A model generated the notes under the pieces. It did no database searches. It saw nothing but the letters and a program-made list of their open reading frames with translations, and was not told the origin of the DNA. From contig NZ_SHLA01000001.1 of NCBI RefSeq assembly GCF_004217565.1, positions 1,736,001 to 1,800,000 on the forward strand: 64,000 bases of DNA, read 5' to 3'. A program made the position numbers and the translations under genes. This DNA comes from Zhihengliuella halotolerans. Lineage in GTDB: Bacteria; Actinomycetota; Actinomycetes; Actinomycetales; Micrococcaceae. Shown here in pieces: positions 2,966 through 33,684 of this stretch (its first letter is position 1; every line of letters starts with the position of its first letter).

Positions 2966-2989
2966 ACCGCCGGTTGGCCGGCGGGACGG

Positions 2990-6051: not shown

Positions 6052-6054
6052 GGT

Positions 6055-6351: not shown

Positions 6352-6467
6352 GTAGCTCCCACAGTGGTTGGGTCATTGGTTCGCGTTTCATTCTATTCCA
6401 GCGCCGGCACCCCGCCGCACGCGGCCGGGCGGCGTTCCCGTACGACGACGTTCCGTCTCGTTCCGCG

Positions 6468-6926: not shown

Positions 6927-6946
6927 GCCTCCACCCTACCCAAGCC

Positions 6947-9000: not shown

Positions 9001-9064
9001 GTTCCAAGTCTGGCGCGCGGCCCCACCCCGCCGCGTCGCCCCCGCGGCTGAATCGTCGCACCGG

Positions 9065-9088
9065 CTCCTCAGCCCTGGGGATGAGGAG
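9065..9088 (-). terminator. Short stem-loop after the hipBA-cap operon
   Basis: A perfect 7-bp inverted repeat (CTCCTCA at 9065-9071, TGAGGAG at 9082-9088) with a 10-nt loop begins 6 nt past the stop of the maltokinase-cap-like gene. It is short and lacks a U run, so termination is only plausible. Confidence 0.4.
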
Positions 9089-9094
9089 TGTGGT

Positions 9095-9667: not shown

Positions 9668-9671
9668 GGTC

Positions 9672-11191: not shown

Positions 11192-11290
11192 CGCATTCAC
11201 CTCACTAATCTTCACGATTGTATGGATTACTGAGGATACGCTCATGCGAATGAGGAATCAAGGTCTATTCAACACGGACGTGTAGATCAG
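11144..11290. promoter_or_regulatory. Putative HipB operators (three TGTAGATCAG half-sites)
   Basis: A perfect 10-bp inverted repeat, CTGATCTACA at 11144-11153 and TGTAGATCAG at 11160-11169 with a 6-nt spacer, sits inside the start of hipB. The same 10-mer recurs exactly at 11281-11290 in the upstream intergenic space. The two locations bracket a likely -10 (TACAAT on the minus strand, 11217-11222). This is the geometry of an autoregulated toxin-antitoxin promoter with DNA looping. That HipB is the protein that binds is inferred. Confidence 0.6.
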
Positions 11291-11322
11291 TCGAGGATTC
11301 GGCGGCCGGTTCCGCGCGGACC

Positions 11323-14384
<3,062 letters not shown>

Positions 14385-14398
14385 TCATCACCTCCGAT

Positions 14399-16697: not shown

Positions 16698-18424
16698 GGC
16701 AGGTCCTCGAAGCGCAGGCTCACGCCGTCGCCCAGGTCGGCGACGTCGCCGCTGAGCAGCAGGACGGACTCCGATTTTCCGAGCCGGCGCGGGGCCTGGC
16801 CTGGCCGGATCAGGACGGTTCCGTTGGTCGCGCCGAGGTCCACGAGCTCGACGTGCCAGCCGTCCACCCGGACCTGCAGGTGCGAGCGGGAGATGTCGCC
16901 GCTCGGACTCGAGACTTGCATCAGGCGCGGCTGCCGGTCGCCGGTGAAGCCGCGGGCGCTCGGCTGGCGCCCGAGCACGACGGACCGCGTCAGCTCGTGT
17001 TCCGACTCCCGCTGGCCGCCGCCGTCGGCGACGATCATCCGGCCCAGCGCGGGCCGGATCACCTGGTGGGCGTCGCCCGTCAGCGCGGCCCCGCACACCG
17101 TGCAGGACGACGACGTCGGCGGGTTCGCGTGCCCCTCGGCGCACGCGCGGCCCAGGACGAACTCGGCGGTGCCCGCAGCCGTCGTCGTGTTGTGGCTCGT
17201 CAGGGTCAGAGCATCGTCGGGTTCTCCGGCGGTCGCCGGGGCCGGCTCCGCTTCGGTCTGCGGCAGGTTGCTGCGCATGACGGTGTGACCGTCGTGGTCG
17301 CCGTCGGCGGCGGGTGCCCCATCGCTGCTTCCCGGCACTACGGGCGGGGCCGGCTGCGACGGCGGGATCGGCGGGACGGGTGGCGCATCCGGGGCGCCGC
17401 GCGTGTTGGTCCGCCACGGAACCGAATCGATCATGCCGGGTTCGTCGGCGCTCTCAGCCTGAACCGGCGCCGGCTCAGGCGCAGACGGCACCGCGGGGGG
17501 CGCCTGGGAAGCAGGGCGCGAAACGAGGATCGTGTCGGCGTCGTCGGCGTCCTCGACCGAGGGGCGGACCACAGGGGCCGACACATCGTCGGTTCCGGTC
17601 TCGTCTTCGCGCCGCCCCAGCAACTCGCCGGCCAGCGAAATCTGCTCGAGGGAGATCGAGTCGGCCTCGCGCCCATGGTCGTGCTCGGGCGCCGCGGCCA
17701 CGGACGCCTCCGGCTCTGGCGCCTCCGGCTCTGGCACCTCGGGCCTACGCGTCGGCTCGGGTTGCGGCTCAGGTTCCACTTCTGGCTCTGACTCTGGCGA
17801 CGCCACCGTGACTTCCGGTTCGGACTCCGGTCCAGGCCCGGGAGCCGCAGCCAGAGTTGATGGCTGCTCGGACGCCGGCGCCACGATGGGCTCCGGGTCA
17901 GGCGTCGCCTCGGGCGCCGGCGCCGGTTCGGCGGGCGCTGCTGCGGCGGCCTCCGCCGTCGTCGTACCCGATTCCCGGGGTTCAGCGGAACCGCAGCGCA
18001 GTCCGTCCGCTCGCACGATCCCCTCGCCGATGGGCAGCCAGCCGTCGCTGGCGGCCGGCCCGCCGGTGGCGCTCACGTGCCAGGCGTCCGCAGGCTGGAA
18101 GCGGCGCTCCTGCCACGTCGCCACGCCCTCGCCGCTCGCCCGCTCGGGGCCCTCCGTGCCTGTCGCGGAGAAGACGACGGCGCCGCGCACCACGACATGC
18201 GGGGCCGCCTCGCGGGAGACGATCGCGAACGACGGCAGCGAGCCGATCTGCATGTTCGCCGCACCGAGGATGCTCGAGAGAAGCGACTCGACGGTCGCCG
18301 CCCCACCGCTCTCGTCCCATAGGCGAGCTACGTCTTCACCGGGAGTGTCGCCCGGGAGCAGCACCACGTGTTCGGGACGGACCAGCGCGAGCCAGTCGCC
18401 CGGGACGTATCGCAGGCCGGTCAT
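16694..18424 (-). CDS. FHA domain protein with zinc-ribbon-like motif
   Basis: 576 residues. The first ~170 form a globular N-terminal domain (MTGLRYVPGDWLALVRPEHVV). A long Pro/Glu/Ala-rich linker follows (about 170-450), then a four-Cys zinc-ribbon-like segment, CAEGHANPPTSSSCTVCGA, and a C-terminal FHA domain with VLGRQPSA, SGDISRSHLQV and DLGATNGTVL. The key phosphothreonine contacts (Arg, Ser, His and Asn) are present. It is expected to bind phosphothreonine made by the adjacent kinase; the layout resembles FHA substrates of PknB kinases. Overlaps of 4 nt on both sides show tight coupling with PP2C and the kinase. Confidence 0.88.
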   Translation of the reverse strand: MTGLRYVPGDWLALVRPEHVVLLPGDTPGEDVARLWDESGGAATVESLLSSILGAANMQIGSLPSFAIVSREAAPHVVVRGAVVFSATGTEGPERASGEGVATWQERRFQPADAWHVSATGGPAASDGWLPIGEGIVRADGLRCGSAEPRESGTTTAEAAAAAPAEPAPAPEATPDPEPIVAPASEQPSTLAAAPGPGPESEPEVTVASPESEPEVEPEPQPEPTRRPEVPEPEAPEPEASVAAAPEHDHGREADSISLEQISLAGELLGRREDETGTDDVSAPVVRPSVEDADDADTILVSRPASQAPPAVPSAPEPAPVQAESADEPGMIDSVPWRTNTRGAPDAPPVPPIPPSQPAPPVVPGSSDGAPAADGDHDGHTVMRSNLPQTEAEPAPATAGEPDDALTLTSHNTTTAAGTAEFVLGRACAEGHANPPTSSSCTVCGAALTGDAHQVIRPALGRMIVADGGGQRESEHELTRSVVLGRQPSARGFTGDRQPRLMQVSSPSGDISRSHLQVRVDGWHVELVDLGATNGTVLIRPGQAPRRLGKSESVLLLSGDVADLGDGVSLRFEDLP

Positions 18425-19272
18425 GGCTTCCTCTCCTCCGTCGTGTCCCGACCGGCAGCGGCGACGGGTTCGGTCTCGCCTTCATCCGCCGCGTCCGGTC
18501 GCGGCATCGTGTCGGCCATGTCGTCGTCGATGTGGCCGCTGACGGCGTCGGCGACGATCACGGTGATGTTGTCGCGGCCGCCCGTGCGCAGGGCGGCCTG
18601 GACGAGCGCGTCGACGGCCTCCTGCGGCTCGGCGAAGCGATCGATGATCTCCTTCATCGTCTCGTCGCGCAGTTCGCCGCTGAGCCCGTCGGAGCAGATC
18701 AGGAGGCGGTCGCCGTGGTTGATCGGCAGCAGCCAGAAGTCGGCGCGGCTGTCATCACCGGTGCCCAGGGCGCGCGTGATGACGTGCCGGCGGGGGTGCC
18801 AGACGGCCTCCTTGGCGGAGATCTCCCCGCGGTCCATCATCAACTGCACCTCGGAGTGGTCCACCGTGACCTGCTCGAGTTCCCCGCCGGCGAGGCGGTA
18901 GGTGCGCGAGTCCCCAACATTGAAGACGAGCCAGTAGGGTGTGCCCTCCTGGTAGACGACAGCCGCTCCCGTCAGGGTCGTGCCCGCGCGTTCGGCAGCC
19001 GCGGCGCGGATCGCGTTGTCGGCGGTGCGCATGAGCTGCTGGATCTGCTCGGCGTTCAGCTGGCCGCCGGCCTGCTCGTAGCCTTCAGCGAGGGTCTCGA
19101 CGCAGACGCGGCTGGCGACCTCCCCCGCTTCGTGCCCGCCCATGCCGTCCGCCACCGCGAAGAGCGAATCAGTGGCCAGGAAAGCGTCCTCGTTGAGCTC
19201 ACGCCGCAGTCCGCGGTCGGTCGCCTGGCCGCGTTTGATGGTCACTGTGGTTTCCGGCGAGCCGGCGCTCAC
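18421..19272 (-). CDS. PP2C-family protein Ser/Thr phosphatase
   Basis: 283 residues, soluble. PP2C motifs appear in order: RGLRRELNEDAFL, VADGMGGHEAGEVAS (metal ligands Asp and Gly), FNVGDSRTYRL, LLICSDGLSGEL and GGRDNITVIVADA. Like PstP, it should dephosphorylate the kinase and its substrates, but it has no membrane anchor; mycobacterial PstP does. It overlaps both neighbours by 4 nt. Confidence 0.93.
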   Translation of the reverse strand: MSAGSPETTVTIKRGQATDRGLRRELNEDAFLATDSLFAVADGMGGHEAGEVASRVCVETLAEGYEQAGGQLNAEQIQQLMRTADNAIRAAAAERAGTTLTGAAVVYQEGTPYWLVFNVGDSRTYRLAGGELEQVTVDHSEVQLMMDRGEISAKEAVWHPRRHVITRALGTGDDSRADFWLLPINHGDRLLICSDGLSGELRDETMKEIIDRFAEPQEAVDALVQAALRTGGRDNITVIVADAVSGHIDDDMADTMPRPDAADEGETEPVAAAGRDTTEERKP

Positions 19273-20456
19273 GCGCGCTCAACCTTGAAGTAGCGGTCAC
19301 CCATGTAGACAGTCTCTCCCATGCTCGCCTGCGTCGGCTGGCCCGCGACCAGATCGCGGCTGATTCCTGCGGCGTCCGTCACCGACGAGCCGTTGGTCGA
19401 ATTGCGATCGGTCACCCAGATACCACTCGTGCTGGCCTGCACCAGCAGGTGGGTCTTCGACACGGACCGGCCGATGTCCGCGAGGCTGAGCAGGTCGTCC
19501 ACGCTCTCCCCGTCGACGGCGGAGGGGTTGCGGCCGATCAACAGCGACTCGGCCAGGACGTGCGTCTGGCCGTCGTCGAACACGAGGCGCGCCTTCGTCG
19601 CGGCGACCTCCCGGAACTGTGTGTGGCCGAGCTCGTCATCGGGGTGCCCCTCGGCGGGCTCTGACGCGGCGGGCTCGACGGCGGGCTCCACGGCGGGCTC
19701 GACGGCGGGCGCCGGGTCCGCGGCAGCAGCCGAGGCCACCGGCGCGGCTGGCGGCTCGGTAGCGGCCGGGCGCGGCGGCTCCGCCGGAGCGGGCGGTGCC
19801 TGCTCGGTACGCGCGGGTGCGGAAGGCGCAAGCTGCCGGGCCTCCGGCTGCCCCGGCACGGCGTTGATGACGCCGGTGAAGGCCGCATCGGACTCGTGCT
19901 GGGTCGCCTGCGCGACCGGAGCGGCCGGCAGGTGGGTCGGGGCGAAGGCCTCCGGCCCGAACAGGCCGCCCGTCGTCAGCGGGTCGCGACCGACGCCGAC
20001 GTCCATGACGAGAGTGCGGGCCACCTTGTCGTGCCAGCCCTGACGCTGGTGATTGGCGTCCCACAGGTTGGAGACGACCATGAGGACCGGGCCGATGACG
20101 GGCACGACGCCGGCGACGCCGATGAGCAGCCGTCGAACGATGACGCGGCCCCACCCCGGCGCGAAGCCGTCCTCGTTGGAGGTGCGCAGCTTGAGCACGA
20201 GATTGCCGAGGGTCTTGCCCTGCGTCGTCTCCCACCACCAGAGGAAGACGGTGTAGCCCAGGGCGATCAGACCGAACAGCGCATACGTCCCCGCGATCTG
20301 CGAGAGGATCTCTGGAGCGGTCGCCGCCTGCACGAGGCGCGGGCCCAGAACGGCGCCGAAAACGGCGCCGAGGATCGCGAGAGGGACCATGTCCAGCAGC
20401 CAGGCGGCCAGCCTCTTTCCCGCTGAGGCATTGACCAGGTTCATTACTTTGGCCAC
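19269..20456 (-). CDS. RDD-family membrane protein with C-terminal FHA domain
   Basis: 395 residues. The RDD domain (about residues 8-150) has three or four membrane helices with the typical start SAGKRLAAWLLDMVPLAI and the WDANHQRQGWHDKVART motif. A low-complexity linker contains triplicate AVEP repeats (about residues 250-262) and leads to an FHA domain (about 285-390: LLIGRNPSA, SVSKTHLLV, DRNSTNGSS). It could tether phosphothreonine-bearing proteins to the membrane. The start GTG at 20456 has AAAGGAG 6 nt upstream. Confidence 0.88.
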   Translation of the reverse strand: MAKVMNLVNASAGKRLAAWLLDMVPLAILGAVFGAVLGPRLVQAATAPEILSQIAGTYALFGLIALGYTVFLWWWETTQGKTLGNLVLKLRTSNEDGFAPGWGRVIVRRLLIGVAGVVPVIGPVLMVVSNLWDANHQRQGWHDKVARTLVMDVGVGRDPLTTGGLFGPEAFAPTHLPAAPVAQATQHESDAAFTGVINAVPGQPEARQLAPSAPARTEQAPPAPAEPPRPAATEPPAAPVASAAAADPAPAVEPAVEPAVEPAASEPAEGHPDDELGHTQFREVAATKARLVFDDGQTHVLAESLLIGRNPSAVDGESVDDLLSLADIGRSVSKTHLLVQASTSGIWVTDRNSTNGSSVTDAAGISRDLVAGQPTQASMGETVYMGDRYFKVERA

Positions 20457-20459
20457 TGG

Positions 20460-22892
20460 TTACTCCTTTGGTGGTGTTGCGTTTACTTTACGGATGGCGA
20501 CCGCGTTCCCGCTAGGACGTTTACGTCCGGCCGCCATTTTCGCGACGATTCCGCCACGCTCCCCGGGCTCCCGGGCCGCGTTCTTGACCGCCATCACCCC
20601 CGCGAGGTCGTGCGTGAGCGAGCGCGGCGAGTACTTGGCCCGCAGCCGCCCCCAGAACGTCGCCGACGACTTCATGGCCTCCGCCTGCTCGTCGACGGCC
20701 GCCCAATAGTCTGCCACCTCCTGCTCGCTCGGTTCGTGCGTCGAGAACGTGGAACGGTCTGCGGTGTCGGCGAGCGCCATCGCGGAGAGCCCCGCATCCG
20801 GGAACCCGTCGACGAGCCTGCGGGCGTTCTCCCGCCTGGTGGCCCCGGCACGGGAGACGATCCCGTAGTCGGTCGCCTGGCTGAGCACCTCCTGCCAGCC
20901 GCCGCTGACGCGGTCTCCCGTCGTGCCCAGCTGGGAACGACGACGGCGGCGGCGCAGCTTGAGTGCGAGGATCAGCAGGAACGGCGCCAGAAGGAGCAGG
21001 ATCGAGCCGAGTGAGAGGACGACCGTGATGATGAGCGGCCCCCACAGCTCCCAGAAGGTCTGCTGCTCCTCTTCGGTCTCCTGCGGCTCCGGCGCGGTCT
21101 CCGGGGGCAGGTCCGGCTCCTCCTGCGCGGGAGGCGGCGGCTGCAGCACCTGCGGCTGGGGGACGGACTTCGGCTCCTGCTCGGGCGGTGTCGGCTGCTC
21201 GTCGTCGTCGGGCGTCGGGTCGAACGCTACCCAGCCGACTCCCTCGAAGGCGATCTCGACCCAGGCGTGCACGTCGGAGCCGGTGAGGTCGATGGCTTTC
21301 TCCGGGTCGTATTCCTCCGGGTAGAACCCCATGACCACGCGTGCGGGGATACCCTGCTCGCGGGCCATGAGCGCCATCGCGGCCGCGTACTGCTCGTCGT
21401 CGCCGATCAGGTCGTCGGCGTCGAGCAGACTCGTGATGCGTCCCGCGCCGTGGCCCGACAGTGACGGCACCTGGCCCTCGGCGCCGTTGGAGAAGTAGCC
21501 GCTGGTGCTCAGGATGGTCTCGAGGCTGCGGGCGCGGTCCAGCGAGCCTTGGGCGGACCCGATGAACTCGACGGCCTTGGCCGCCGCCAGCGGGGGCACG
21601 TTGGCGAGCGTGGGCATGCGCAGCTGCGCGAACTCCGCCTCGGCCAGCTCCTCGTCGGCCAGCTTGACGGGGAATTGGACGTGCGCGGTGTAGGTGTCGC
21701 CCGCGTCCAGGCCCGTCGCGCTCAGCGCGGTCTCGGCCTCGTCGCTGTAGAACAGCGAGCGCCCGAGCGCGTCCTGCCGCGCCCCCGCGACCTCGACGCC
21801 GGTGAGCCGGCCGCCCGCGGGCAGCCAGACGCCGTCGTACGCGCCGATGCTGATCTCGAGCTCGCCCGTGGTGCGGCGGGTGTCGGAGCCGGTGGCGCGG
21901 ATGTCGGAGGAATCGCCCACCGGGGCGAAATTGCCGCCCGACTTGGGGTCCACGTTGAAGACCATGCCGTTGTAGGAGTCGAGGGCGGCCAGGCGGATGC
22001 GCTCACCCTCGGGCAGGCCCTTGACGCTCAGCAGGGTCTCGTCCGCCATGGTCTTGACGTACTTGCGGAAGCTCATCAGCGGGCTCGGGTAGCTGTAGAG
22101 GTCCACGGGCGGTTCGATCGCCTCCCGCAACACCTGGCGCGGGGTCTGCGGGCTGATCAGCGGGGCGGCGGCCGCCGTCGCGCCGCTAGCGGCGAGCAGC
22201 ACGACGGCGCCGATCGCCACCCGCCGCACGAGTCCGTCGCGCACGCCGCGGGCGTCCTCCTCGGCGTGGTTGAGCGAGCGGAACCCGTCCTTGACCGTGC
22301 GGGCGATGTAGCGCCGCCAGGCGAGCCAGCCGACGAGCACCGCGATGAAGACGCCGCCGCGCAGCAGCGGCAGGGGGACGTCGCGGGTGCCGAAGACGAT
22401 GCCGACGACGAACATCACCAGCAGCGGCAGCAGCGTGAAGAACGGGGAACGCAGCCGCCACGCGGTCAGGCCCGCGACGAGACCCGTGAGCAGGGTGGTC
22501 AGGAACGCGACGATGAGCACGCCCCCGAACGCGCCGACGGGCGGCGAGACGGTGAGCATGTCCTTCCAGGACATGACGACGCCGGCCAGCAGGGTGCGCA
22601 GCGACTCGACGGTGGGGACCACGCCGTAGAGCGTCTCCCGCGGGGTCGCCAACGGCGTCCCGAGCACGAGGTACAGGGCGGCGAAGATGGCCATCGTCCG
22701 CCACACGCCCAGCCGGAACCGGACGTTCGCCCAGGCCAGCCCGAGTCCGGCGACGATCCCGCCGATCGAAGCGAGCAGGTAGTGGGCGCTGCCGCCGTAG
22801 GCGTCCCAGAGGCCCAGCGCGCCCAGGAACAGGGCGAGGCCGAGACATCCGGCGTCGAGCCCGTAACGCCACAGGGGTAGTTTCTCTCTCAC
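20460..22892 (-). CDS. TgpA-like transmembrane transglutaminase-fold protein, catalytic Cys replaced
   Basis: 810 residues: about six N-terminal membrane helices (residues 10-245), an extracytoplasmic transglutaminase-like domain (about 440-575), a Pro/Glu-rich stretch, one more helix near 620-645 and a basic cytoplasmic tail with a DUF4129-like segment. In active proteins the core reads G-x-C-E-Q; here residues 497-501 read GDDEQ, so Asp499 occupies the Cys position. His542 (in DVHAW) and Asp558 (in FDPTPDD) are kept with normal spacing. The fold is probably intact but thiol catalysis is not possible, suggesting a binding or scaffold role. It overlaps the DUF58 gene by 4 nt, the common MoxR-DUF58-transglutaminase arrangement. 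Confidence 0.9.
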   Translation of the reverse strand: MREKLPLWRYGLDAGCLGLALFLGALGLWDAYGGSAHYLLASIGGIVAGLGLAWANVRFRLGVWRTMAIFAALYLVLGTPLATPRETLYGVVPTVESLRTLLAGVVMSWKDMLTVSPPVGAFGGVLIVAFLTTLLTGLVAGLTAWRLRSPFFTLLPLLVMFVVGIVFGTRDVPLPLLRGGVFIAVLVGWLAWRRYIARTVKDGFRSLNHAEEDARGVRDGLVRRVAIGAVVLLAASGATAAAAPLISPQTPRQVLREAIEPPVDLYSYPSPLMSFRKYVKTMADETLLSVKGLPEGERIRLAALDSYNGMVFNVDPKSGGNFAPVGDSSDIRATGSDTRRTTGELEISIGAYDGVWLPAGGRLTGVEVAGARQDALGRSLFYSDEAETALSATGLDAGDTYTAHVQFPVKLADEELAEAEFAQLRMPTLANVPPLAAAKAVEFIGSAQGSLDRARSLETILSTSGYFSNGAEGQVPSLSGHGAGRITSLLDADDLIGDDEQYAAAMALMAREQGIPARVVMGFYPEEYDPEKAIDLTGSDVHAWVEIAFEGVGWVAFDPTPDDDEQPTPPEQEPKSVPQPQVLQPPPPAQEEPDLPPETAPEPQETEEEQQTFWELWGPLIITVVLSLGSILLLLAPFLLILALKLRRRRRRSQLGTTGDRVSGGWQEVLSQATDYGIVSRAGATRRENARRLVDGFPDAGLSAMALADTADRSTFSTHEPSEQEVADYWAAVDEQAEAMKSSATFWGRLRAKYSPRSLTHDLAGVMAVKNAAREPGERGGIVAKMAAGRKRPSGNAVAIRKVNATPPKE

Positions 22893-24238
22893 GCTGCGGC
22901 CCTCCGGAGCATCAGGCCCAGCTCGTCGAGGCTGCCGAGCGTCAGGACGGTCAAGTCGCCGATGTTCGCGCGGGCCGCGGTCAGGCCGTGACCGCAGCGG
23001 ATCGCGATGGCGCGGACACCGAGCGGGACGTGCATGCTGGCCTCGCGCAGCTGGCGGGCCGTGGTGCCCGCACCCGTGATGATGAAGACCACGGACGCGT
23101 TCGGCACCTGGTCGGCAGCGGTCCGGACGAGGTCAACGACGGTGTGCCGCGGCGTCGGACGTCCCTCGACGCGAGTGAGCCCGTCCATCATGTTGCGGCC
23201 GGTGTCGGTGCGTACCGGGCCCGTCTGGGTCAGGACGGAGAGCTTGCGCTGCTCGAAGGTCGCCTGCAGGCCGATCGAGGCCGCCGCCGAGACGGCTACC
23301 TCGAAGTCGTCAGCGGCGTCCGCCTCGGCTTCGCCGTACTCGGCGAGGTTGAGGGACAGCGCGACGGCCAGGTGGGAGCGGCGGGTCTCCTCGAACTGGC
23401 GGACCATGAGCTGACCGGTCCGGGCAGAGGACTTCCAGTGGATGTGGCGGCGGTCGTCGCCGGCCTCGTAGTCCCGCAGCGCGTGGAAGGAGACGTCGGA
23501 GTTCGACAGGTCGCGCGTCGGCATGCCCTCGAGGTCGCGGATGAAGCCGGCACTGGAACCATCGAGCGCCGTCGTCTGGGGGTGCACGAAGAGCTCGTAC
23601 TCGTCGGTCCAGCTCACCTGGCGGCGCAGCAGCCCGAACGGGTCCTGACGGACCGAGCGGACCGGGCCGACGGCCAGCACGGCACGACGGCGGGTCGGGA
23701 TCGTGAAGAGGTCCTCGTGCTCGGCGTCCGGCTGGAGGCGCGGGACGCGGAACGCGGCCACGGCGGCGCCGACGGGCAGCTCCATCGTCGCGCCGAAGGA
23801 CGCGCGCTTGGAGACGTTCTTGACGACCATCGCGCCGACCGCGCGGTCGCCCACGGCCACCCGGGTGCGATTGAGTTCGAGGCGCACGTCGTAGTCGGTG
23901 CGCCCGAGGACGAAGGCGACGGCGATGACCAGCAGCAGGGCCGCCATGAACGCCCCGAGGAGGGCCTCCTGCCAGCCGAAGATCGCGCCGAGCAGCCACA
24001 AGAGGAGCGCGGTGCCCGCCACCACGAATCCGAGCGGCGAGACGAGGCGGCCCGCCGGCTCGAAGAACCGGTCGCCGAGGACGCGCAGCCGCTCCACCAG
24101 CGGGCGGGCGTACTCGCGGGCGATCGCGAGGGACTCGCCCACGGCGGTCGCCGATCGGCCGGCGGTGCGCCGCAGCGCCTGCCCGCGCCCGGACTCCGGG
24201 TCAGCGCGGCGTGCGCGACGGGTGGCCCGAGGGCTCAT
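22889..24238 (-). CDS. DUF58 membrane protein
   Basis: 449 residues with two closely spaced membrane helices (about residues 68-112) and the DUF58 signature around residues 230-285: NSDVSFHALRDYEAGDDRRHIHWKSSARTG, then MVRQFEETR. DUF58 proteins contain a vWA-related fold and work with MoxR AAA+ ATPases in envelope stress or assembly functions. The gene overlaps moxR and the transglutaminase-like gene by 4 nt each. Confidence 0.92.
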   Translation of the reverse strand: MSPRATRRARRADPESGRGQALRRTAGRSATAVGESLAIAREYARPLVERLRVLGDRFFEPAGRLVSPLGFVVAGTALLLWLLGAIFGWQEALLGAFMAALLLVIAVAFVLGRTDYDVRLELNRTRVAVGDRAVGAMVVKNVSKRASFGATMELPVGAAVAAFRVPRLQPDAEHEDLFTIPTRRRAVLAVGPVRSVRQDPFGLLRRQVSWTDEYELFVHPQTTALDGSSAGFIRDLEGMPTRDLSNSDVSFHALRDYEAGDDRRHIHWKSSARTGQLMVRQFEETRRSHLAVALSLNLAEYGEAEADAADDFEVAVSAAASIGLQATFEQRKLSVLTQTGPVRTDTGRNMMDGLTRVEGRPTPRHTVVDLVRTAADQVPNASVVFIITGAGTTARQLREASMHVPLGVRAIAIRCGHGLTAARANIGDLTVLTLGSLDELGLMLRRAAA

Positions 24239-25344
24239 GCGGAGCCCGCATCACGACGCTTCGCGACGGTCGCCGCGTCGTCGGCGGTCGCGCCCACGCG
24301 GTCCGAGGCGTAGCGTTCGTCGGCGTGTGAGCCGGTCGTGGTGACCGCCGCGGGCTCGGGTTGCGGGGCGGGTGCGGCGGTGCCGCGCTGCGTGGGTGCC
24401 GGAACCGAGCGCACGACGGCGGAGATGACCTGCTCGGACGTCGCGCCGGTGAACTCGGCCTCCGGATCCAGGACGAGGCGGTGGGTCCAGACGAACGGTG
24501 CAAGTTCCTTGACGTCGTCGGGCAAGACGTAGTTCCGACCCTCCGACGCGGCCCACACCTTGGCCGCGCGGACCATCGCGAGCGCGCCGCGGACGGAGAC
24601 GCCGAGCCGGGTCTCGTCGGCCTCGCGCGTGCCCTCGCAGAGCTGCGCCACGTAGTTCAGGACGGCGTCATCGACGTGCGTCGTCGAGGCCAGGTCCGCC
24701 ATGTCGGCGATGGCCTCCGTGGTGATGACGGGCTTGAGCGCGGCCGAGCGGTCCTTCTGCGTGGCACCCGAGAGCAGCTCGACCGTGGCGGCCCGGTTCG
24801 GGTAGCCGATGGACGTCTTGATGAGGAAGCGGTCCAGCTGCGCCTCGGGCAGGCGGTAGGTTCCGGCCTGCTCGATGGGGTTCTGGGTCGCGATGACCAT
24901 GAACGGGCGCTGCTGGGGGTAGGTCACGCCGTCGACCGTCACGCGCCCCTCTTCCATGACCTCGAGCAGGGCCGACTGGGTCTTCGGAGAGGCGCGGTTG
25001 ATCTCGTCGGCCAGGACCAGGTTCGCGAAGATCGGTCCGCGGTGGAACTCGAACTTCTGGGTCTTCTGGTCGTAGATCGTGATGCCCGTGACGTCGGAGG
25101 GCAGCAGGTCCGGGGTGAACTGGATGCGCGAGTTGGTGCCCTTAACGGTGGCCGCGAGCGACCGGGCCAGCATCGTCTTGCCCGTGCCGGGGGCGTCCTC
25201 GAGGAGGACGTGGCCCTCGGCGAGCATCGCGGTCAGCACGAGGCGGACAGCGTCCTCCTTGCCGAGCACGGACTTGCCGACGTTGGCCACCAGCTTTGCG
25301 AAAGTCTCGGAGAACCAGCCGGCCTGCTCGTTGGTCATCGTCAT
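24235..25344 (-). CDS. MoxR-family AAA+ ATPase
   Basis: 369 residues with Walker A GTGKTMLARS (about residue 50), Walker B LVLADEINRASPKTQSALLEVMEEG and sensor ATQNPIEQAGTYRLPEAQLDRF. MoxR ATPases act as chaperone-like remodelers on DUF58/vWA partners. A ~60-residue Ala/Pro/Thr-rich tail after the AAA+ core is unusual. The start could be Met 1 or Met 3, six bases apart. It begins 73 nt after the giant surface-protein gene on the same strand. Confidence 0.93.
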   Translation of the reverse strand: MTMTNEQAGWFSETFAKLVANVGKSVLGKEDAVRLVLTAMLAEGHVLLEDAPGTGKTMLARSLAATVKGTNSRIQFTPDLLPSDVTGITIYDQKTQKFEFHRGPIFANLVLADEINRASPKTQSALLEVMEEGRVTVDGVTYPQQRPFMVIATQNPIEQAGTYRLPEAQLDRFLIKTSIGYPNRAATVELLSGATQKDRSAALKPVITTEAIADMADLASTTHVDDAVLNYVAQLCEGTREADETRLGVSVRGALAMVRAAKVWAASEGRNYVLPDDVKELAPFVWTHRLVLDPEAEFTGATSEQVISAVVRSVPAPTQRGTAAPAPQPEPAAVTTTGSHADERYASDRVGATADDAATVAKRRDAGSA

Positions 25345-25417: not shown

Positions 25418-28400
25418 TCACCAGCGCGCGTCGTTGGATCTGGTGCCGTCCACGATGGCGTACACGGGCATCGCGTAGCCTTCCTGGTTCACGCACTGGA
25501 CGTTCTTGAACCCACGGCCGTCGTTCCCGGCGGTCATGGTGTGCGGGTAGCCGTTGAACTTCCCGTTCTGGTTGTAGCAGTCGACCCGGTACGTGCCCGG
25601 ATTGAAGTTCTCGATCCGCACGTGGAACGTGTAGCACCGCGAATTGCAGCCGGTGTAGGAATTGTTCAGGTCTCCCTTGGAGAGCGAAACCTTGCGCTGC
25701 GGCTTGGGATTGGTCTTCTCCGTCTTGGACCACGTTTTCCTCTGCCCCTCGGTATCCGTCGCAACGATCTTGATGGTGCGCGAGGTGGAGTACCCGAGGC
25801 CGTTCACGGTCTGGGCGCCGTCGTTCGGGGTCTGGTTGCCGCCGATCGTGACCGTCTGGGTGACCTTGCGACCGTTGTAGGTGCCGGCGCCGGTGTTCCA
25901 CGTGAACTTGATCCAGTCGTTGCCGTGGGAAGCCGAGATCTGCGGGTTGTCCCGCAGCGGCCCGTAAGCGCTCGTGCTGTTGCTCGGGGCGCTCGGATTC
26001 GCCGGTCCCGCCGCGTTCACGGCGCGAACCCGCCACGTGTGCGGGTCGCCGTTGGACCCGGTGTCGATGACCGCGCCCGGCCCGCCGAAGCCCTTCCAAG
26101 CGCCGCCGTCGGCCGAGTACTGGTAGCCGGTGATCGGAGACCCGTTAGCGCCCGGCGCCGTGAAGTTGAGCTCGACCATCCGGTTGGCCCCGGTCGCCTT
26201 CGCGGTGACCTTGCCGATCGTCGTGGGCCGGCCGTAGGGGGTGACCGCGGCCGATTGCGCGCTCTGATCAGAAGCACCGACCCGGTTGCGGGCGGTGACG
26301 CTGAACCGGTAGGACTTGCTGGTGTTCAGCCCCGTGACCGTCTGGTTCGAACGGTTGGCGGGGATGTCGCTGATCGTCCTGACCAGCGAACTGCCCTCGA
26401 ACACGCGCACGGTGTACGTCTGGAGGGGAGCACCGTTGGCGCCGGGCGCCCGCCAGGACACGTCGACGACGCCGCCGTCGACCGCTGAATCCTTGCGGAC
26501 CGCCGTCGGCGCATCGGGCTTGAACGGGACGCCGGCCGGCGTGACCGCGGCCGAGTAGGTGCTCCACTGCGACGGCTTGGCCGCCTTGTTCACGGCGCGC
26601 ACCCGAACCTGATAGGCCGTCCCGTTCTTGAGCCCCTCCCACGTGTAGGAGGTGCCCGTGATGCCCGTGATCTGGGCGACACCGTTCGCCGGGGCGGGGG
26701 AGATCTCGAGCGTGTAGCTCTGGATCGCCGAGCCTCGGCTCACGGGAGCGGTCCAGTTGAACGTCGCCTTCTGATCGCCGTCTTTGCCCGTGGGCGCCGC
26801 CGGCTGCTCTGGTTCGACGTCGGGGCGCGCATCCGCAGATTCCGGCGATTTCGGCGATTCGCCGATGGCGTTCGAGGCGGTGACCGTGAAGTTGTAGGTC
26901 TGATCGTTGGTCAACGGCGTGATGGTGCACGTCGTCGTCTCGCACTGCTGGCTGTGCCCGCCGCCGGTGACCGTGTAGTGCGTGATGGCGGACCCGTTAT
27001 TCGCGGGCGGGTCCCAGGTCAGGACCGCCTTGCGATCCCCCGTGGACTCGACGCGCGGCAGGTTCGGCGCCGCCGGCGCGCCCTTGACGTTCAAGGTGAT
27101 CGTGCCGGAGACGTTGCGCTGCGGGTCCTCCGTCACGTCCCCGATCACGTATTCGACGCGCATGGTGCCGACGAAGTCGCTCCTCGGCGTGATCGCCACC
27201 TTGTTGCCGCGCACCTCGGCGGTGCCGGTGTTCTCGAGGGGGCGGGCGCTGATCAGCCGCAGGTCGCCCTCACCCTGGTACGGGTTGTGGTCGTTCGCGA
27301 GCGCGTCGACGATCTCCGTCTGGCCCTGCGCCGCCTCCGGCACGTTGTCGGCGACAGCGACCGGCAGTTCGCGCGTCGAACCCGTCACCGTGACCGTCAT
27401 GGCGGCCGAAACCGGCGGGTTCACGCCGTCGCTGACGGAAACCGTCACTGTGCCGCGAGTGCCCTTCGGCGTGTCGGCGGGGGCGACGAGGCGCAGGTTG
27501 TACCCATCGACGATGGCGGCTTCGACGCCCGCCACCTCGACCGCGCCGAGGGCGAACTTGAGGTTCGGCACGTCCTCGTCGTTCCGGTCGTTGGCAGCCA
27601 TCCGGAGGTCCATGATGGCCGGCCCCTCGCCCTGCCCGACGGAGATCGAGTTTGCCTGGAGCGTCGGCGGGAAGTTCTCCGGATCCGACTGCTCTTCGTC
27701 TTCCTCGGGGTCGCCCTCCGGCCCCTGGCCTTCCCGCTCCTCGTCCGGATCGTTGCCCGGGCTCGGCAGGACGTTGATCGGGACCGTCAGCGTGGAGGTG
27801 AGGCCACGATCGTCGTCAGGGCCCGAACCGTCCGTTACCTCGAACGTCACCGACGCAGAGCCTGAGAAGGAACGGCCGGCTTTGAAGGTGAGCTCGGTAG
27901 CGGATTTCACGAGCGCCCCGTCGTTCTCCGGCATCGAGCTCACGCTGTCTTCCGTCGTCAACCGCGGGCTGCGGCCGTCGCGCACGAGGACGATCTCTTC
28001 GAGATCGATCGACAGCGTCTCCCCTGCCGTGACCTCGAGCTGGACGTCGCTGCGCAGGATCGGCCGGGCCTCTCCCGTGCCCGGGACGTGCACGAACGCG
28101 GTCGACGTCAGTCCATCCGGATCGGTCAGCGTGTAGGCGATGACCTGCGGGGCGCTCCCGATCTGGACGACCATGCCGTCTTCGTTCACGGATGCCGTGT
28201 CCGGGTCGTCCGGAAGGTGCACCTCGAGCTCGGACACGCTCCCGTCCGGGTCTTCGTCGTTGCGGAGGATGTCGACCGTGACTTCGTCGACGTCGATGAT
28301 CTCCTCGAGCGAGACCCTGTCGTCGCGGGCGATCGGCGCCAGCAGTTTGGCCTCGGGGTCCGACTTCACGGTCAGGGTTGCGGAGGCCGTGCCGCCGCGC

Positions 28401-31400
28401 CCGTCAGTGATGGAGTAGCGGACCGACGTCGTCCCGTCGTCGGGCGGCGACATCAGCACGACGCGGCCGTCGACGACCTCGGCATCGGTCTCGTTCTCCT
28501 CCGACCCCAGCTCGCGCATCAGTGCCAGGGGGTCCCCGTCCGGGTCGGTGTCGTTGGCCATCACGTCCACTGCTACCGGCCGGTCCGGACGCACGGTGAT
28601 TAAGTCGTTGACCGCCACTGGCGGGTTGTTGGCCTCGGACAACGGCGCGATGCCGATCTTGACCGTGGCCGTCGACCGGGCGCCGAGGCGGTCCTCGACG
28701 ACGTAGGTGAACTCGTCCGTCCCGCTCGCGTCCCTGTTGGCCGTGTAGTCGATAGACGCGCCGCGGATCTTGGCCGTTCCGTACTTCGGCGACGAGCCGA
28801 ACTGGACGAGCGAGACCGAGTCGCCGTCCGGGTCGATGGCCTCCAAGGGCACCTGCACGTTGGTGCTGCTGCCGGCGAAGACGCGCCCCTCGACAGGCAC
28901 GGGGTTCGGCGGCGTGTTGCTCTCCAGGTCGGCCTCGCCTGCGGCGGGCTTGACGTTGAACGTCACCGTCGCGCTCGTCTCCTGGCCGTCCGGTCCGGCC
29001 ACCTTGTAGACCGCCGACACCTGGCGCGCCTTGCCGCCAAAGTCGCCGGCGCGGAATCGGACGACGTCGTCGGCGACCGAGATCAGCGAGCCCTCGCCGA
29101 GGTCGTCGGTCTCCTCGAGCTCGGGCAGCAGCGTGAGCTCGCCGCCGTTGGGGTGGATGTCGTTCTCGAGGACCTTGACGGTCGCCACGTCGTGTTCGCG
29201 CACGACGACGGAATCCGGGTTGGCCTGGGGCGGATCCATGCGCGGCGGGGCCGGGATCGGGACGATGCGGATCTCGCCGGTCGACTCCCCGTTGCCGTTC
29301 GCCACCGTGTAGCTGATCGTGGTCGGGTCTGTCAGTCCGCGCACGTCCGTGATGCGCACAAAGGTGTTCCGCTCCACGCTCGTGGAGAACGGTGCCTCGG
29401 GATCGTTCTCGGCGGCGGTCACGACGAGCACGCCGCCCGACGGGTCCGTGTCGTTGCCGAGCACGTCGACGAGGACGTCCTGGCCGGCCGGGAGCAGCGC
29501 GACATCGCGCACGGCGATGGGCCGCTGTTCCGCGTCGTCGGGCTCGTTGATATCGATGCGCACGAGACCCGGCGCGCTGGCGGGACCGTTCGTCGCGACG
29601 TACTTGGCGTAGTAGGTGCCCGCACGCTCACCCGTGACGGTCACGGCTCCGGTCTCCGTATTCGTCTTCATTTCGAGGCCTGAGACGTCGTCGACGTTGG
29701 CGAGACGCAGCCCTTCCCCGGAGGGGTCGGTGTCGTTGGCCAGTGGCTCGAAGGTGATCGACTCGCCGACGTGCCCGACGACGTGGTCGGTCGCGGTGAT
29801 GGGCGGGATGGTCGACTCGGCGAGCACCTCGACGAGGACGCGACCCTTGGTGCTCTCGCGGCCGTCGGAGACCTGGACCGCGATCTCCTTCTGACCGACG
29901 CGTTTGCCATCGTCCTGGAAGGTCAGCGATCCGTCCGGACGCACGCGGATGACATCGTCGCCCTCGCTCGTACCGCCGAGCAGCTGCAGGTCGTCTCCCT
30001 CGGGATCCGTCCAGTCGGTCAGCAGGTTCTGGCTCACCGATTCGCCCTGCTGAACACGCAGAACGGTGACCCGCTCCTGCTCAGGAGGCTCGTTCGCGTC
30101 CTCGCCGACGACATTCAGACGCACGGTTGCCGAATCGGATCCGCCGCGGCCGTCGGAGGCCGTATAGACGAAGGTCGCAGCTCCTGAGGCGTCCTCGGGG
30201 ACGACCACCTGGAAGCCGGTTCCGTTGTGCACGGGCTGCAGGTCGCCGATCGACGGGCCGGAGCCCTCGACCTCGGCCGTGAGGAGGTCGCCGTCCGGGT
30301 CCACATCGTTGTAGAGCACGGGCAGCATCGTGGTGCGGCCGGGCCGCACGCTGAACGTGTCGTCCTCGGCGATGGGAGTCTGGTTCTCCTCGGTGCGATT
30401 CGGCAGCTCGATCGCGTCGGTGATCTCCTTGGTCTCCTCCTCCTTGGCCTCACCCTCGCCCGCGGGCGGCTCCAGATCGCTCCAGTTGCTCACGATCTCC
30501 ATGCCCTCGTTCGTCAGCCACACTTGGCCGGAGGCGATGTCGTTGAGGACCACCACGTCGCGGTTGACGCGGAAGACCAGTTCGGCCCCCTCGGGCATCT
30601 CGGGCACCAGCACGTTCTGGTTCTGCCCCGAGTCGTCGCAGTAGCGCAGGTACTGGCCGCTCGTCTGCCAGGCGGCATAGGTGCAGGAGCCCACTCGCAC
30701 AGGCTCGATGGGCGTGCCGGCCGTGTCGAGCTGCTCGTAGTTGACGTCGCGCCCGTTCAGACCCACGGTGGCCAGCGAATTGTCGAGGGCGATCGCGACG
30801 CCGTCGTTCTTCGGCCCGGGCGCCTGGAGACGGGCGTTGGCCGGGTTCTCGACGCTGGCCCGTTTGCCCTCCGAGGTGAACACGTCGCCGGAGGCGGCGT
30901 CGAAGACGACTCCGGTCTCCCCCACCGCGGTTAGCTGCGGCTCGGCCAGCTGCTTCAGATCTGCGATCTCGATCTCGTCCTGAGGTTGTACCTCGCCGGA
31001 ATCGTCGAACGCGAAACTCGCCAGCACGCCGGCGTCGTAATCGACGGTCCAGACCGTGTCGTCGACCCCGACGACGGCGTCCACGTCACCCTTGGAATCG
31101 ACAAGTGGCTCGGCGACGTCGCCGGAGAAATCGGAGAGATTCTCGACACCGGCCGCCTGCACGGTGCCGTGTTTGTCGTCGGTGACCGCGACGACGGAGG
31201 TGCCGAAGGAGAAGGACGAGTTCGCGGGGAGGTTGTTGTCGCCGGCGAACTGAACCATGGCGGGGTCGATCGTCGTGAGCGAGGCCTGCTCGAGGTTGCG
31301 GACGAAGACGCTCTCGGCGTTCTGGACCAGGTCGTAGCTCGACAGCGGGGTGACCACGCCGCCGTCGATCACGCGCGACTGGTAGTTGATGTGGCCGATC

Positions 31401-31582
31401 TTGCCTTCGGCTTGGTTCACGACCCAGACGCCGCCGTCGTTGAGCTCCACATCGGCCGTTTCGAAGCCGGGGTAGAGGATGGCACCGGTGACGGCGAGCG
31501 CCGCGGCGGCTGAGACGGCCGTCGCCTTGAAGCCTGTGCTCTTCAAGGCCGTGGGCCATCCCGCTCGAGGGGCCTTCGCCAT
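25418..31582 (-). CDS. Giant cell-surface protein with cadherin-like/Ig-like and Fn3 repeats
   Basis: 2054 residues. A short basic cytoplasmic tail precedes one membrane helix (about residues 19-38), with the rest expected outside. Residues ~45-380 contain beta-rich repeats that look like a propeller (GVWVVNQAEGKIGHINY, DAVVGVDDTVWTVDYDAGVLASF). Residues ~405-1490 hold about ten cadherin/VCBS-like Ig repeats marked by NDxDPDGD calcium-type loops. Residues ~1500-1960 hold about five Fn3 domains, and the last ~90 residues form a Cys-containing domain (CNSRC, DCYNQNGK, VQCVNQEG). No LPXTG signal is seen. It heads the MoxR-DUF58-kinase operon, so it is a likely structural client or sensor of that system. 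Adhesion or wall organisation is inferred, not shown. Confidence 0.9.
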   Translation of the reverse strand: MAKAPRAGWPTALKSTGFKATAVSAAAALAVTGAILYPGFETADVELNDGGVWVVNQAEGKIGHINYQSRVIDGGVVTPLSSYDLVQNAESVFVRNLEQASLTTIDPAMVQFAGDNNLPANSSFSFGTSVVAVTDDKHGTVQAAGVENLSDFSGDVAEPLVDSKGDVDAVVGVDDTVWTVDYDAGVLASFAFDDSGEVQPQDEIEIADLKQLAEPQLTAVGETGVVFDAASGDVFTSEGKRASVENPANARLQAPGPKNDGVAIALDNSLATVGLNGRDVNYEQLDTAGTPIEPVRVGSCTYAAWQTSGQYLRYCDDSGQNQNVLVPEMPEGAELVFRVNRDVVVLNDIASGQVWLTNEGMEIVSNWSDLEPPAGEGEAKEEETKEITDAIELPNRTEENQTPIAEDDTFSVRPGRTTMLPVLYNDVDPDGDLLTAEVEGSGPSIGDLQPVHNGTGFQVVVPEDASGAATFVYTASDGRGGSDSATVRLNVVGEDANEPPEQERVTVLRVQQGESVSQNLLTDWTDPEGDDLQLLGGTSEGDDVIRVRPDGSLTFQDDGKRVGQKEIAVQVSDGRESTKGRVLVEVLAESTIPPITATDHVVGHVGESITFEPLANDTDPSGEGLRLANVDDVSGLEMKTNTETGAVTVTGERAGTYYAKYVATNGPASAPGLVRIDINEPDDAEQRPIAVRDVALLPAGQDVLVDVLGNDTDPSGGVLVVTAAENDPEAPFSTSVERNTFVRITDVRGLTDPTTISYTVANGNGESTGEIRIVPIPAPPRMDPPQANPDSVVVREHDVATVKVLENDIHPNGGELTLLPELEETDDLGEGSLISVADDVVRFRAGDFGGKARQVSAVYKVAGPDGQETSATVTFNVKPAAGEADLESNTPPNPVPVEGRVFAGSSTNVQVPLEAIDPDGDSVSLVQFGSSPKYGTAKIRGASIDYTANRDASGTDEFTYVVEDRLGARSTATVKIGIAPLSEANNPPVAVNDLITVRPDRPVAVDVMANDTDPDGDPLALMRELGSEENETDAEVVDGRVVLMSPPDDGTTSVRYSITDGRGGTASATLTVKSDPEAKLLAPIARDDRVSLEEIIDVDEVTVDILRNDEDPDGSVSELEVHLPDDPDTASVNEDGMVVQIGSAPQVIAYTLTDPDGLTSTAFVHVPGTGEARPILRSDVQLEVTAGETLSIDLEEIVLVRDGRSPRLTTEDSVSSMPENDGALVKSATELTFKAGRSFSGSASVTFEVTDGSGPDDDRGLTSTLTVPINVLPSPGNDPDEEREGQGPEGDPEEDEEQSDPENFPPTLQANSISVGQGEGPAIMDLRMAANDRNDEDVPNLKFALGAVEVAGVEAAIVDGYNLRLVAPADTPKGTRGTVTVSVSDGVNPPVSAAMTVTVTGSTRELPVAVADNVPEAAQGQTEIVDALANDHNPYQGEGDLRLISARPLENTGTAEVRGNKVAITPRSDFVGTMRVEYVIGDVTEDPQRNVSGTITLNVKGAPAAPNLPRVESTGDRKAVLTWDPPANNGSAITHYTVTGGGHSQQCETTTCTITPLTNDQTYNFTVTASNAIGESPKSPESADARPDVEPEQPAAPTGKDGDQKATFNWTAPVSRGSAIQSYTLEISPAPANGVAQITGITGTSYTWEGLKNGTAYQVRVRAVNKAAKPSQWSTYSAAVTPAGVPFKPDAPTAVRKDSAVDGGVVDVSWRAPGANGAPLQTYTVRVFEGSSLVRTISDIPANRSNQTVTGLNTSKSYRFSVTARNRVGASDQSAQSAAVTPYGRPTTIGKVTAKATGANRMVELNFTAPGANGSPITGYQYSADGGAWKGFGGPGAVIDTGSNGDPHTWRVRAVNAAGPANPSAPSNSTSAYGPLRDNPQISASHGNDWIKFTWNTGAGTYNGRKVTQTVTIGGNQTPNDGAQTVNGLGYSTSRTIKIVATDTEGQRKTWSKTEKTNPKPQRKVSLSKGDLNNSYTGCNSRCYTFHVRIENFNPGTYRVDCYNQNGKFNGYPHTMTAGNDGRGFKNVQCVNQEGYAMPVYAIVDGTRSNDARW

Positions 31583-31769: not shown

Positions 31770-33101
31770 TCAGTCGATGATGAGGGACCCGCCCTCGCCA
31801 TGGGCGAGATCGAACGGGGTGATGTCCCCGAATCCGCGCACCGGAGTGCTCTCAAGCTCGGAGAGGATGAAGCGGACATCGCCCTTGAGCGTCGCCGCTG
31901 TCAGCGCGTCAGTGAGGATCTGCCCCGGTTCGGCCAGGGAGGTCAGCCGTGCGGCCAGATTAACCGTCGGGCCGTAGATGTCCCCGAGGCGAGAGAGAAC
32001 GCGCCCCCACACGACGGACACGCGGGCCTCGGGCAGTGCGTCGTCGGCGTTGAGTTCCTGGGCGAGCGTCAGAGCGATCTGGGCTCCGGCCTGCGGCGTC
32101 TCGGCGATGAACAGGACCTCGTCGCCGATGGTCTTGACCAGGCGACCGCCGCCGACGGAGATGATCTCCGCAGACTTGTTCTCGAAGCGCTGGACGAGCT
32201 GGGCCAGCGTGCGCTCGTTCATGCGGCGCGAGAGCGAAGTGTAGGAGACGAGGTCGGCGAACCCGACCGCGCGGGCGAGCGGCAGTGGAGCGTCGTCGTC
32301 GTCCCCGGTGGAGACGGCGCCGGCCTGTGAGCGCGCGCCGAGCCGGTGGACGGCCGCGTTGAGGTTCCGCCGCCAGGAGTAGACGAGCAGTTCCTCAAGC
32401 GGTGCGATGAGGTCAGGCAGCAGCTCGACCATGGTGCGACGGGCCTCGGGGTCGCTCATCCCCTGATTCTGGATCATGTCCTCGACGAGCGCCTCGATCT
32501 GCCAGACGACCATGCGATCGGTCATCTGCCCGATGGACCTCGTCACGGAGATGGCGGCCTCCTCGGTGAGGCGCTCGGAGCGGACGTTGTCGATGATCGT
32601 CAGCAGTGCGTCCAGGTCCTTCTGCGTGAACGCAACGTCCTCGTCCCCGTGGTTGGGGAAGCCGAGCGCACGCCAGAGTTTCCGGGCGCTGTGCAGGGAG
32701 ATGCCGGCCTGGGCGGCCACATCGCGGCGCTTCATGGTGCGCTCGCCGCCGATGAGGCGGGACTCGAGGTTCTTCGTGGACGCCTTGACCTGCTGGCGCT
32801 TGATGGCCTCCACGAGCGGAAGGGCGCGCGTGATGGGCCCCGGATCCGTCGGCAGGTCGTGGGCGGAGAACGGGACGTCTGCGATCTTGTAGGAGTCATC
32901 GAAGTCCGGGGCGGTACCGGCCGCGTACCGGGAGTGGTCGGGGAACTTGAGCTCGACGTCGATCGCGGGCAGCTCACGCGTCGCTGGCTCGGACTCGGCA
33001 CCCTCGCGCGGGGACTCCGGCTCGACAGGGGTCGCGGCCATGGCCGGTTCCGGCGTCCGAGGGTGCCCGCGAGCCTCGTCGTGTTCGCGGTTCTCAGACA
33101 T
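31770..33101 (-). CDS. Class III adenylate/guanylate cyclase with HTH-type regulatory domain
   Basis: 443 residues from ATG 33101; an in-frame start at 33113 is possible. Domains are a ~95-residue acidic N-terminus, a helical regulatory domain (about 95-225) with a MerR-like helix-turn-helix segment (MKRRDVAAQAGISLHSARKLWRALGF), and a C-terminal class III cyclase domain (about 255-435: GFADLVSYTSLSRRM metal site, GDEVLFIAE, and GDIYGPTVNLAARL). It lacks membrane helices, so it is cytosolic or membrane-associated through partners. It makes cAMP or cGMP; the class is clear, the base is not. It overlaps the PH-domain gene by 8 nt and ends 188 nt before the giant surface-protein gene. Confidence 0.9.
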   Translation of the reverse strand: MSENREHDEARGHPRTPEPAMAATPVEPESPREGAESEPATRELPAIDVELKFPDHSRYAAGTAPDFDDSYKIADVPFSAHDLPTDPGPITRALPLVEAIKRQQVKASTKNLESRLIGGERTMKRRDVAAQAGISLHSARKLWRALGFPNHGDEDVAFTQKDLDALLTIIDNVRSERLTEEAAISVTRSIGQMTDRMVVWQIEALVEDMIQNQGMSDPEARRTMVELLPDLIAPLEELLVYSWRRNLNAAVHRLGARSQAGAVSTGDDDDAPLPLARAVGFADLVSYTSLSRRMNERTLAQLVQRFENKSAEIISVGGGRLVKTIGDEVLFIAETPQAGAQIALTLAQELNADDALPEARVSVVWGRVLSRLGDIYGPTVNLAARLTSLAEPGQILTDALTAATLKGDVRFILSELESTPVRGFGDITPFDLAHGEGGSLIID

Positions 33102-33684
33102 GCGGCTTCCCATCCGGCGTCCGGCCTTCCGGCGCCGCCCAATCCATCTGTTGTTCAGTCTCTAGTTCTACACCATCGAACATGACGCTTCGAGGCAGCT
33201 CCTCGATTGCGTCGAGGACGAGCTCACGCAACTTGTGAACTCCGGGCGCGTTTTCCAGGATCGTCTCTCCGTCGGCCGTGATCATCACCAGATGCCCCGC
33301 CCCCACGGAGCGCTGCATCATGGTCTGTCTGACGATGAGTTCACGAATCAGCACGAGCGGAAGTTCCCGCAGCGAGCGGGCGCCGACGCCGGTGCGGATG
33401 AGGACGCGCCGGTTGGTGAGGTAGTACCACGTGCGCGCCCACCGGGCGTAGGGAACCACGCTCCAGACGAGGATCAGCAGGGCGCAGAGGCCGAGCAGGG
33501 ACGGATAGACGATCGGCAAGATGTCCTCGAGCCACTCGGGCAGGCCGTCCCGACCCAGCCAACCGGCCCCGAACCCGGTGGCCGCCACGAGGAGGAGGAG
33601 CAGACACGCGGGCCGCGTGAGGACGCGGCGGTGCTGGCGGGTCTTGACAATGACCCGCTCCGCTTCGCCGAGCTTGATTCGCAC
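33094..33684 (-). CDS. Bacterial PH-domain membrane protein
   Basis: 196 residues with two membrane helices (about residues 26-45 and 55-74) followed by a bPH2-like domain: WARTWYYLTNRRVLIRTGVGARSLRELPL, then IRELIVRQTMMQRSVGAGHL and ENAPGVHKLRELVLDAIEELP. The start is GTG at 33684, with GGGAGAGG about 11 nt upstream. Such proteins are common partners of envelope and lipid functions. The overlap with the cyclase gene suggests coupled expression. The biochemical role is unknown. Confidence 0.85.
   Translation of the reverse strand: MRIKLGEAERVIVKTRQHRRVLTRPACLLLLLVAATGFGAGWLGRDGLPEWLEDILPIVYPSLLGLCALLILVWSVVPYARWARTWYYLTNRRVLIRTGVGARSLRELPLVLIRELIVRQTMMQRSVGAGHLVMITADGETILENAPGVHKLRELVLDAIEELPRSVMFDGVELETEQQMDWAAPEGRTPDGKPHV

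Follow-up and report, generated by a model that had tools for sequence, protein, structure and literature searches.

What does a 2054-residue, membrane-anchored rod protein do in Zhihengliuella halotolerans, and does it have a counterpart that has already been described? The question is raised by a 64,000-nucleotide stretch of this genome (contig NZ_SHLA01000001.1 of assembly GCF_004217565.1, positions 1,736,001 to 1,800,000; hereafter the window, within which all coordinates are given). The open reading frame (ORF) lies on the minus strand at 25418–31582, the plus-strand frame there is riddled with stop codons, and a chance product is excluded because full-length homologues exist at 39–96% identity. 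ORF calling, Pfam matches, homologues and blastp comparison with Bifidobacterium FN3 identify the product as an FN3-type protein. Sequence comparison makes it near certain that this is how Micrococcaceae represent FN3, a product of the PFNA operon of bifidobacteria (pkb2-fn3-aaa-duf58-tgm, together with prpC, fha and one unknown gene), and that the two proteins are orthologues.

The window protein and Bifidobacterium FN3 aligned at 29–31% identity over ∼1700 colinear residues in 7 of 7 comparisons (E values of 3e-144 to 4e-162), with identity rising to 38–43% in the first and most conserved Fn3 domain. The profiles of the two head regions matched with a probability of 99.9 and an E value of 4.6e-35. 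The genus taken here as Bifidobacterium (g30) was assigned from its phosphoketolase, an FN3-MoxR fusion and its head frequency. The phosphoketolase of one member (G148) differed by eye at about ten of 825 positions from PDB 8io6/3ai7, the latter of which we take to be the B. longum protein. In the same genome FN3 is fused to MoxR (locus L050), in line with the fused gene described for B. breve (PMC6803598). Of the 112 genomes assigned to the genus, 83 carried the head, near the published frequency of 77 of 99 species. Both proteins show the same domain order of anchor, propeller, Ig repeats and Fn3 domains, and both have genes for MoxR, DUF58, TgpA, PP2C, FHA and kinase proteins as neighbors, with MoxR, DUF58 and TgpA directly downstream of fn3 in the window. 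In PFNA, however, the kinase gene pkb2 lies directly upstream of fn3, whereas in the window the kinase gene closes the run as its eighth and most downstream member; the window protein is thus an FN3 orthologue in a rearranged cluster rather than in strict PFNA order. The window also differs in having additional Fn3 domains and a tip with four Cys residues on FN3, an RDD gene between those for TgpA and PP2C, and a host that is not a bifidobacterium. As a type of protein the architecture is ordinary, the protein being orthologous to one already described; what matters most is this orthology and the gene's membership in a conserved cluster, neither of which the original prediction could see.

The PFNA papers present the operon as occurring only in bifidobacteria with no orthologues found elsewhere, suggest that the FN3 domains may come from eukaryotes, and view the operon as a sensor of host cytokines. 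The first two statements are contradicted by the genomes examined here. The head profile matched one place in the Z. halotolerans genome. In its GTDB order it matched 169 of 297 sampled genomes, which represent 51 of the 93 genera covered; it also matched 36 of 296 in a draw from the class (13 of these outside the order) and 7 of 197 in a draw from the phylum (4 of these outside the class). Among the carriers known by name are Zhihengliuella, Arthrobacter, Glutamicibacter, Paeniglutamicibacter and Herbiconiux, whose habitats are mainly soil, plant or saline. This distribution bears on the proposal that FN3 evolved as a receptor for animal cytokines via WSxxS-type motifs in its Fn3 domains, for which the reported binding of tumor necrosis factor alpha (TNF-alpha) by a B. 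longum FN3 fragment and the induction of the operon by TNF-alpha provide support (PMC8430577, PMC10688814). Against it stand the presence of protein and cluster in the genera just named and widely in the order, the occurrence of WSxxS-like motifs in many non-bifidobacterial copies (including WSTYS at residue 1673 of the window protein), and the report that TNF-alpha is bound neither by the Fn3 pair alone nor by the C-terminal fragment alone (PMC10688814). The 38–43% identity of the most conserved Fn3 domain further argues against late acquisition from eukaryotes and weakens the suggested eukaryotic origin. Given the carriers outside the gut, the general role of the protein cannot lie in sensing cytokines, and we regard an immune receptor as improbable; a derived cytokine use may exist within bifidobacteria alone. 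A literature search, which did not cover subscription papers, found no description of the cluster outside bifidobacteria and none of the missing Cys residue discussed below; a mycobacterial moxR operon is noted only as resembling PFNA (PMC12067865).

The neighborhood was compared, with counts made by hand, across 48 head loci, of which 11 were named homologue loci and the rest were hand-picked across families and so are not a random sample. MoxR followed the FN3 head in 47 of 48; at the exception (L094), DUF58 follows FN3 without a detected MoxR between them. DUF58 and TgpA were each present in 47 of 47 loci with room to carry them (L010 ends at a contig edge), and a kinase was in view at 43 of 48. 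The published PFNA order, with the kinase directly upstream of fn3, was seen in the Bifidobacterium loci and in eleven others (L061, L062, L067, L069, L077, L082, L085–L088 and L092). A lone adhesin is rejected on the strength of the conserved neighbors in 47 of 48 loci; the gene belongs to an old cluster of the actinobacteria. The window holds a single copy of the gene; tandem duplicate fn3 genes occur in relatives (L093, positions 2518–14905, and also G296, G165, G081, G038 and G248).

The cluster member presumed to be an enzyme is predicted to be catalytically dead. The TgpA-like multi-pass protein of the window (20460–22892, minus strand) combines, according to Pfam, TgpA_N and DUF4129 with a transglutaminase core in a single chain, and its core aligns with that of P. 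aeruginosa TgpA (PDB 6g49), a transglutaminase-domain membrane protein. P. aeruginosa TgpA keeps the catalytic Cys, whereas the window protein has Asp at that position (GDDEQYA), and the Cys-His-Asp triad of an active transglutaminase is incomplete in the cluster proteins. In 48 FN3-linked copies (the window and 47 loci in the range L002–L095) the position was never Cys; it was Asp in 29, Ser in 8, Glu in 6, Ala in 4 and Gly in 1, while the triad His was kept in 22 and the Asp in 24. By comparison, Cys was present in 48 of 50 control TgpA proteins (the 30 best TgpA_N loci, with FN3 neighbors not checked, and 20 hand-picked ones). One Cys-less control (L138) itself sits beside an FN3 head, and setting it aside leaves 48 of 49; the other (L144) lies in a MoxR-DUF58-TgpA run with no detected FN3 head. 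Twelve FN3-carrying genomes have a second, Cys-bearing TgpA copy (L126–L137), and in three of them (G333, G020 and G016) the FN3-linked copy was read as well. In Bifidobacterium, the best 30 copies from the 84 genomes with a match among 112 searched all had Ser for Cys, Thr, Glu or Ala for His, and Tyr or His for Asp. A tree of 91 TgpA proteins placed 49 FN3-linked copies, those of Bifidobacterium among them, on one side of a branch with an SH-aLRT (Shimodaira-Hasegawa-like approximate likelihood ratio test) value of 99; the tree, made by a quick method and with no root inferred, omits seven near-duplicate controls. Of 20 weak matches to TgpA_N in other actinobacteria (L148–L167), 19 lacked the Cys and 13 of these had a nearby head match at an E value of up to 1e-3; the copy that kept the Cys (L154) had no head nearby. 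The head matches near these weak copies lie in shorter ORFs, ∼580–1310 codons from stop to stop, some on the opposite strand. A further MoxR-DUF58-TgpA run with no detected FN3 head (L146, genome G335) has Gln at the Cys position.

Eight genes on the minus strand, with fn3 first, form the run in the window. Downstream of fn3 are genes for a MoxR-type AAA+ ATPase (24235–25344; Pfam AAA_3, E value of 4e-63), a DUF58 protein (22889–24238, from Pfam), the TgpA-like protein, an RDD-family protein (19269–20456, from Pfam), a PP2C protein phosphatase (18421–19272, from NCBIfam and Pfam), an FHA-domain protein (16694–18424, from Pfam) and a Ser/Thr protein kinase with a membrane segment (15108–16697, from Pfam and reading of the sequence). 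The seven intergenic gaps are 73, −4, −4, 3, −4, −4 and −4 bp, as in a translationally coupled operon. The outer part of the kinase appears by eye to be Fn3-like and has two Cys residues. Upstream of fn3 by 187 bp and on the same strand is a gene with an adenylate/guanylate cyclase domain (31770–33113), and such a gene also precedes fn3 at L003, L005 and L006. The window MoxR matched Pfam bpMoxR at 45.0 bits, above the cut-off of 27, which raises the alternative that the run is a conflict or immunity system akin to the MoxR-vWA-beta-propeller ternary systems. The run does encode a propeller, and its DUF58 protein may be vWA-like. The AAA_3 score is far above that for bpMoxR, however, the propeller sits in a membrane-anchored outer rod, Pfam analysis of the window proteins found no effector gene in the run, and the ternary systems are described from other phyla and with other components (PMC7159879). 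We consider this alternative very improbable. A lost metal site in DUF58 was dropped as a special feature: the classical motif is missing in the cluster copies and in unlinked control copies alike.

The FN3 protein itself agrees closely with the original prediction, which had described a propeller-like head, about ten Ig-like repeats, Fn3 repeats and a Cys-rich end behind a single N-terminal anchor with no sorting signal. The anchor lies behind a short basic tail at residues 17–37 (31472–31534); residues 18–40 give the hydropathy maximum and form the sole standout hydrophobic segment, which is also conserved in the relatives. The only LPXTG-like match in FN3 falls within that segment, and the C-terminal LPXTG, hydrophobic stretch and basic tail of a sortase-anchored surface protein were not found. 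Pfam matched Big_9 in 10 stretches (E value of 2.4e-87), fn3 in three, Cadherin_4 and Cadherin_5, and NCBIfam assigned the protein as a tandem-95 repeat protein. FN3 shares its repeat family with tandem-95, Big_9 and cadherin-like surface proteins but differs from them in its propeller head, conserved cluster and absence of a C-terminal sorting signal. From Big_9 matches and motif spacing, residues 401–1500 (27083–30382) hold about eleven repeats of an Ig/cadherin-like kind that carry DPDGD-type loops, with an acidic low-complexity hinge seen in the sequence between repeats at residues ∼1275–1303 (∼27674–27760). About five Fn3-type domains follow at residues 1501–1955 (25718–27082), as indicated by Pfam, an AlphaFold model and a fold search. 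Seven DPxG-type loops were found in FN3, two of which (D428-D432 and D1013-D1017) are invariant across 12 homologues, and calcium binding by the predicted DPDGD loops is plausible, the loops being conserved.

Two AlphaFold models, covering residues 1–600 and 1500–2054, were built from an alignment of 12 homologues. The head (residues 38–368; 30479–31471) was recognized as a beta-propeller by structural comparison and by its profile match to the Bifidobacterium heads; residues ∼65–368 gave Z 17.3 to 5mzh_A, the match to 1h9x_B had Z 17.2 and spanned 288 residues (root-mean-square deviation, rmsd, of 4.3), and Foldseek gave an E value of 9e-10 to 1l0q, a surface-layer protein with a YVTN propeller and PKD. 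A sequence profile search found no PDB chain similar to the head. The predicted local distance difference test score (pLDDT) was ∼90 for residues 160–330 and below 50 for residues 1–116, so that the first blade or blades are poorly predicted. Disorder and an internal enzymatic domain had been named as outcomes that would tell against the original prediction. Disorder of the tail is rejected by a mean pLDDT of 90.3 for residues 1500–2054, read as six beta-sandwiches (five Fn3-type and the C-terminal Cys domain), and Pfam matched no enzyme family in FN3; a fucoidan hydrolase, the top Foldseek row, had a TM-score of only 0.16 with an rmsd of 21.9, and a hidden enzyme was discarded. The Fn3 fold of the tail was borne out by 3lpw_B (Z 17.0, rmsd of 2.5 over 179 residues), with Foldseek and VIA-align coverage mostly of residues 1500–1820 and hardly any of Fn3 domain 5 and the tip.

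The four-Cys end (residues 1956–2054; 25421–25717), which had been proposed as a separate binding module, is, in the model, a separately folded beta domain. It is not the defining part of FN3, however, because it is lineage-specific, as the model, the relatives' alignment and a profile search indicate (18–99% identity among 12 relatives), and is not visible in the Bifidobacterium proteins. The suggested profile search of this domain gave no significant PDB or Pfam relative; the best PDB match, at an E value of 0.016, was to an Fn3 stretch of EphA2, and assignment to a known family was rejected. No second tip copy was found in the Z. halotolerans genome, the other match having an E value of 0.73 and running over a stop codon.

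Further information on partnership came from co-variation. Head and TgpA were found in 83 and 84 of 112 Bifidobacterium genomes, respectively, their co-occurrence being broken only by G616. Over 42 loci, head distances correlated beyond MoxR with TgpA distances at a partial value of 0.49 (the best of 200 shuffles gave 0.22) and with DUF58 distances at 0.37, which is suggestive of a partnership between FN3 and TgpA. Taken with the observed order of domains, the homology, the place in the cluster and the lack of Cys in the linked TgpA-like protein, these data favor, at roughly even confidence, an FN3 orthologue in a PFNA-type cluster that acts through a dead TgpA partner. Most likely, FN3 spans the wall as a rod for sensing or adhesion and works with this partner and the MoxR-DUF58/kinase module. 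The short N-terminus would lie in the cytoplasm and the propeller on the outer membrane face, while the Ig and Fn3 repeats, at ∼4 nm per domain, would form a rod of very roughly 60–70 nm across the wall to display the variable tip; the great length previously expected outside the membrane appears right. The propeller would dock on the TgpA-like protein at its outer pseudo-transglutaminase domain, whose task would be binding rather than cross-linking. Binding or pull at the tip would be relayed to DUF58 and MoxR on the inside, under tuning by the FHA protein, the phosphatase and the kinase, whose genes suggest regulation. The primary job would then be envelope sensing or adhesion, with bifidobacterial cytokine binding later or incidental.

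Several points weigh against this model. The contact, topology and signaling are steps that we infer from sequence. The head-kinase distance correlation beyond MoxR was −0.14 over the same 42 loci, in a mirror-tree analysis in which MoxR substitutes for the species tree. A direct FN3-kinase link is weakened by this lack of co-variation and by the position of the kinase, which changes from one end of the cluster to the other between lineages. No FN3 head was detected for 6 of the 19 Cys-less weak TgpA matches or for L144 and L146, so that the Cys loss belongs to a wider clade: Cys-less TgpA is a wider actinobacterial paralogue to which every FN3-linked copy read belongs. The reported TNF-alpha binding by the B. 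longum fragment (PMC8430577, PMC10688814) is a further point. The main rival is a purely structural wall-spanning stalk or adhesin that lacks signaling, with MoxR, DUF58 and TgpA serving as assembly chaperones. The repeat-rod architecture, the FN3-mediated adhesion of B. bifidum S17 (cited in PMC12607495) and the description of MoxR proteins as assembly chaperones (PMC8430577) are consistent with it. Against it, the coupled run also contains genes for a kinase, a phosphatase and an FHA protein, and the conservation of the membrane-proximal propeller, with its many invariant residues, exceeds the needs of a plain spacer. We give this rival only tentative credence.

The model of an FN3 rod acting through a dead TgpA may extend, also tentatively, to an ancient actinobacterial class of sensor, from soil Micrococcaceae to bifidobacteria, in which a wall-spanning propeller-Ig-Fn3 rod would be read by a receptor, the dead transglutaminase, and a MoxR-DUF58 remodeling machine would be driven by that receptor, the cytokine response being secondary. 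The missing catalytic Cys of the cluster TgpA is a new point, and the presumed cysteine enzyme of the PFNA operon has lost its catalytic residues. The window protein is near certain to be the soil-bacterium counterpart of an FN3 reported as unique to gut bifidobacteria. Immune-therapy ideas rest on the published claims about PFNA, namely its restriction to bifidobacteria, the lack of orthologues elsewhere and a possible eukaryotic source of its FN3 domains; its uniqueness and the idea of a host-immune sensor need re-testing, and non-gut relatives are now at hand for study of the core function of FN3.

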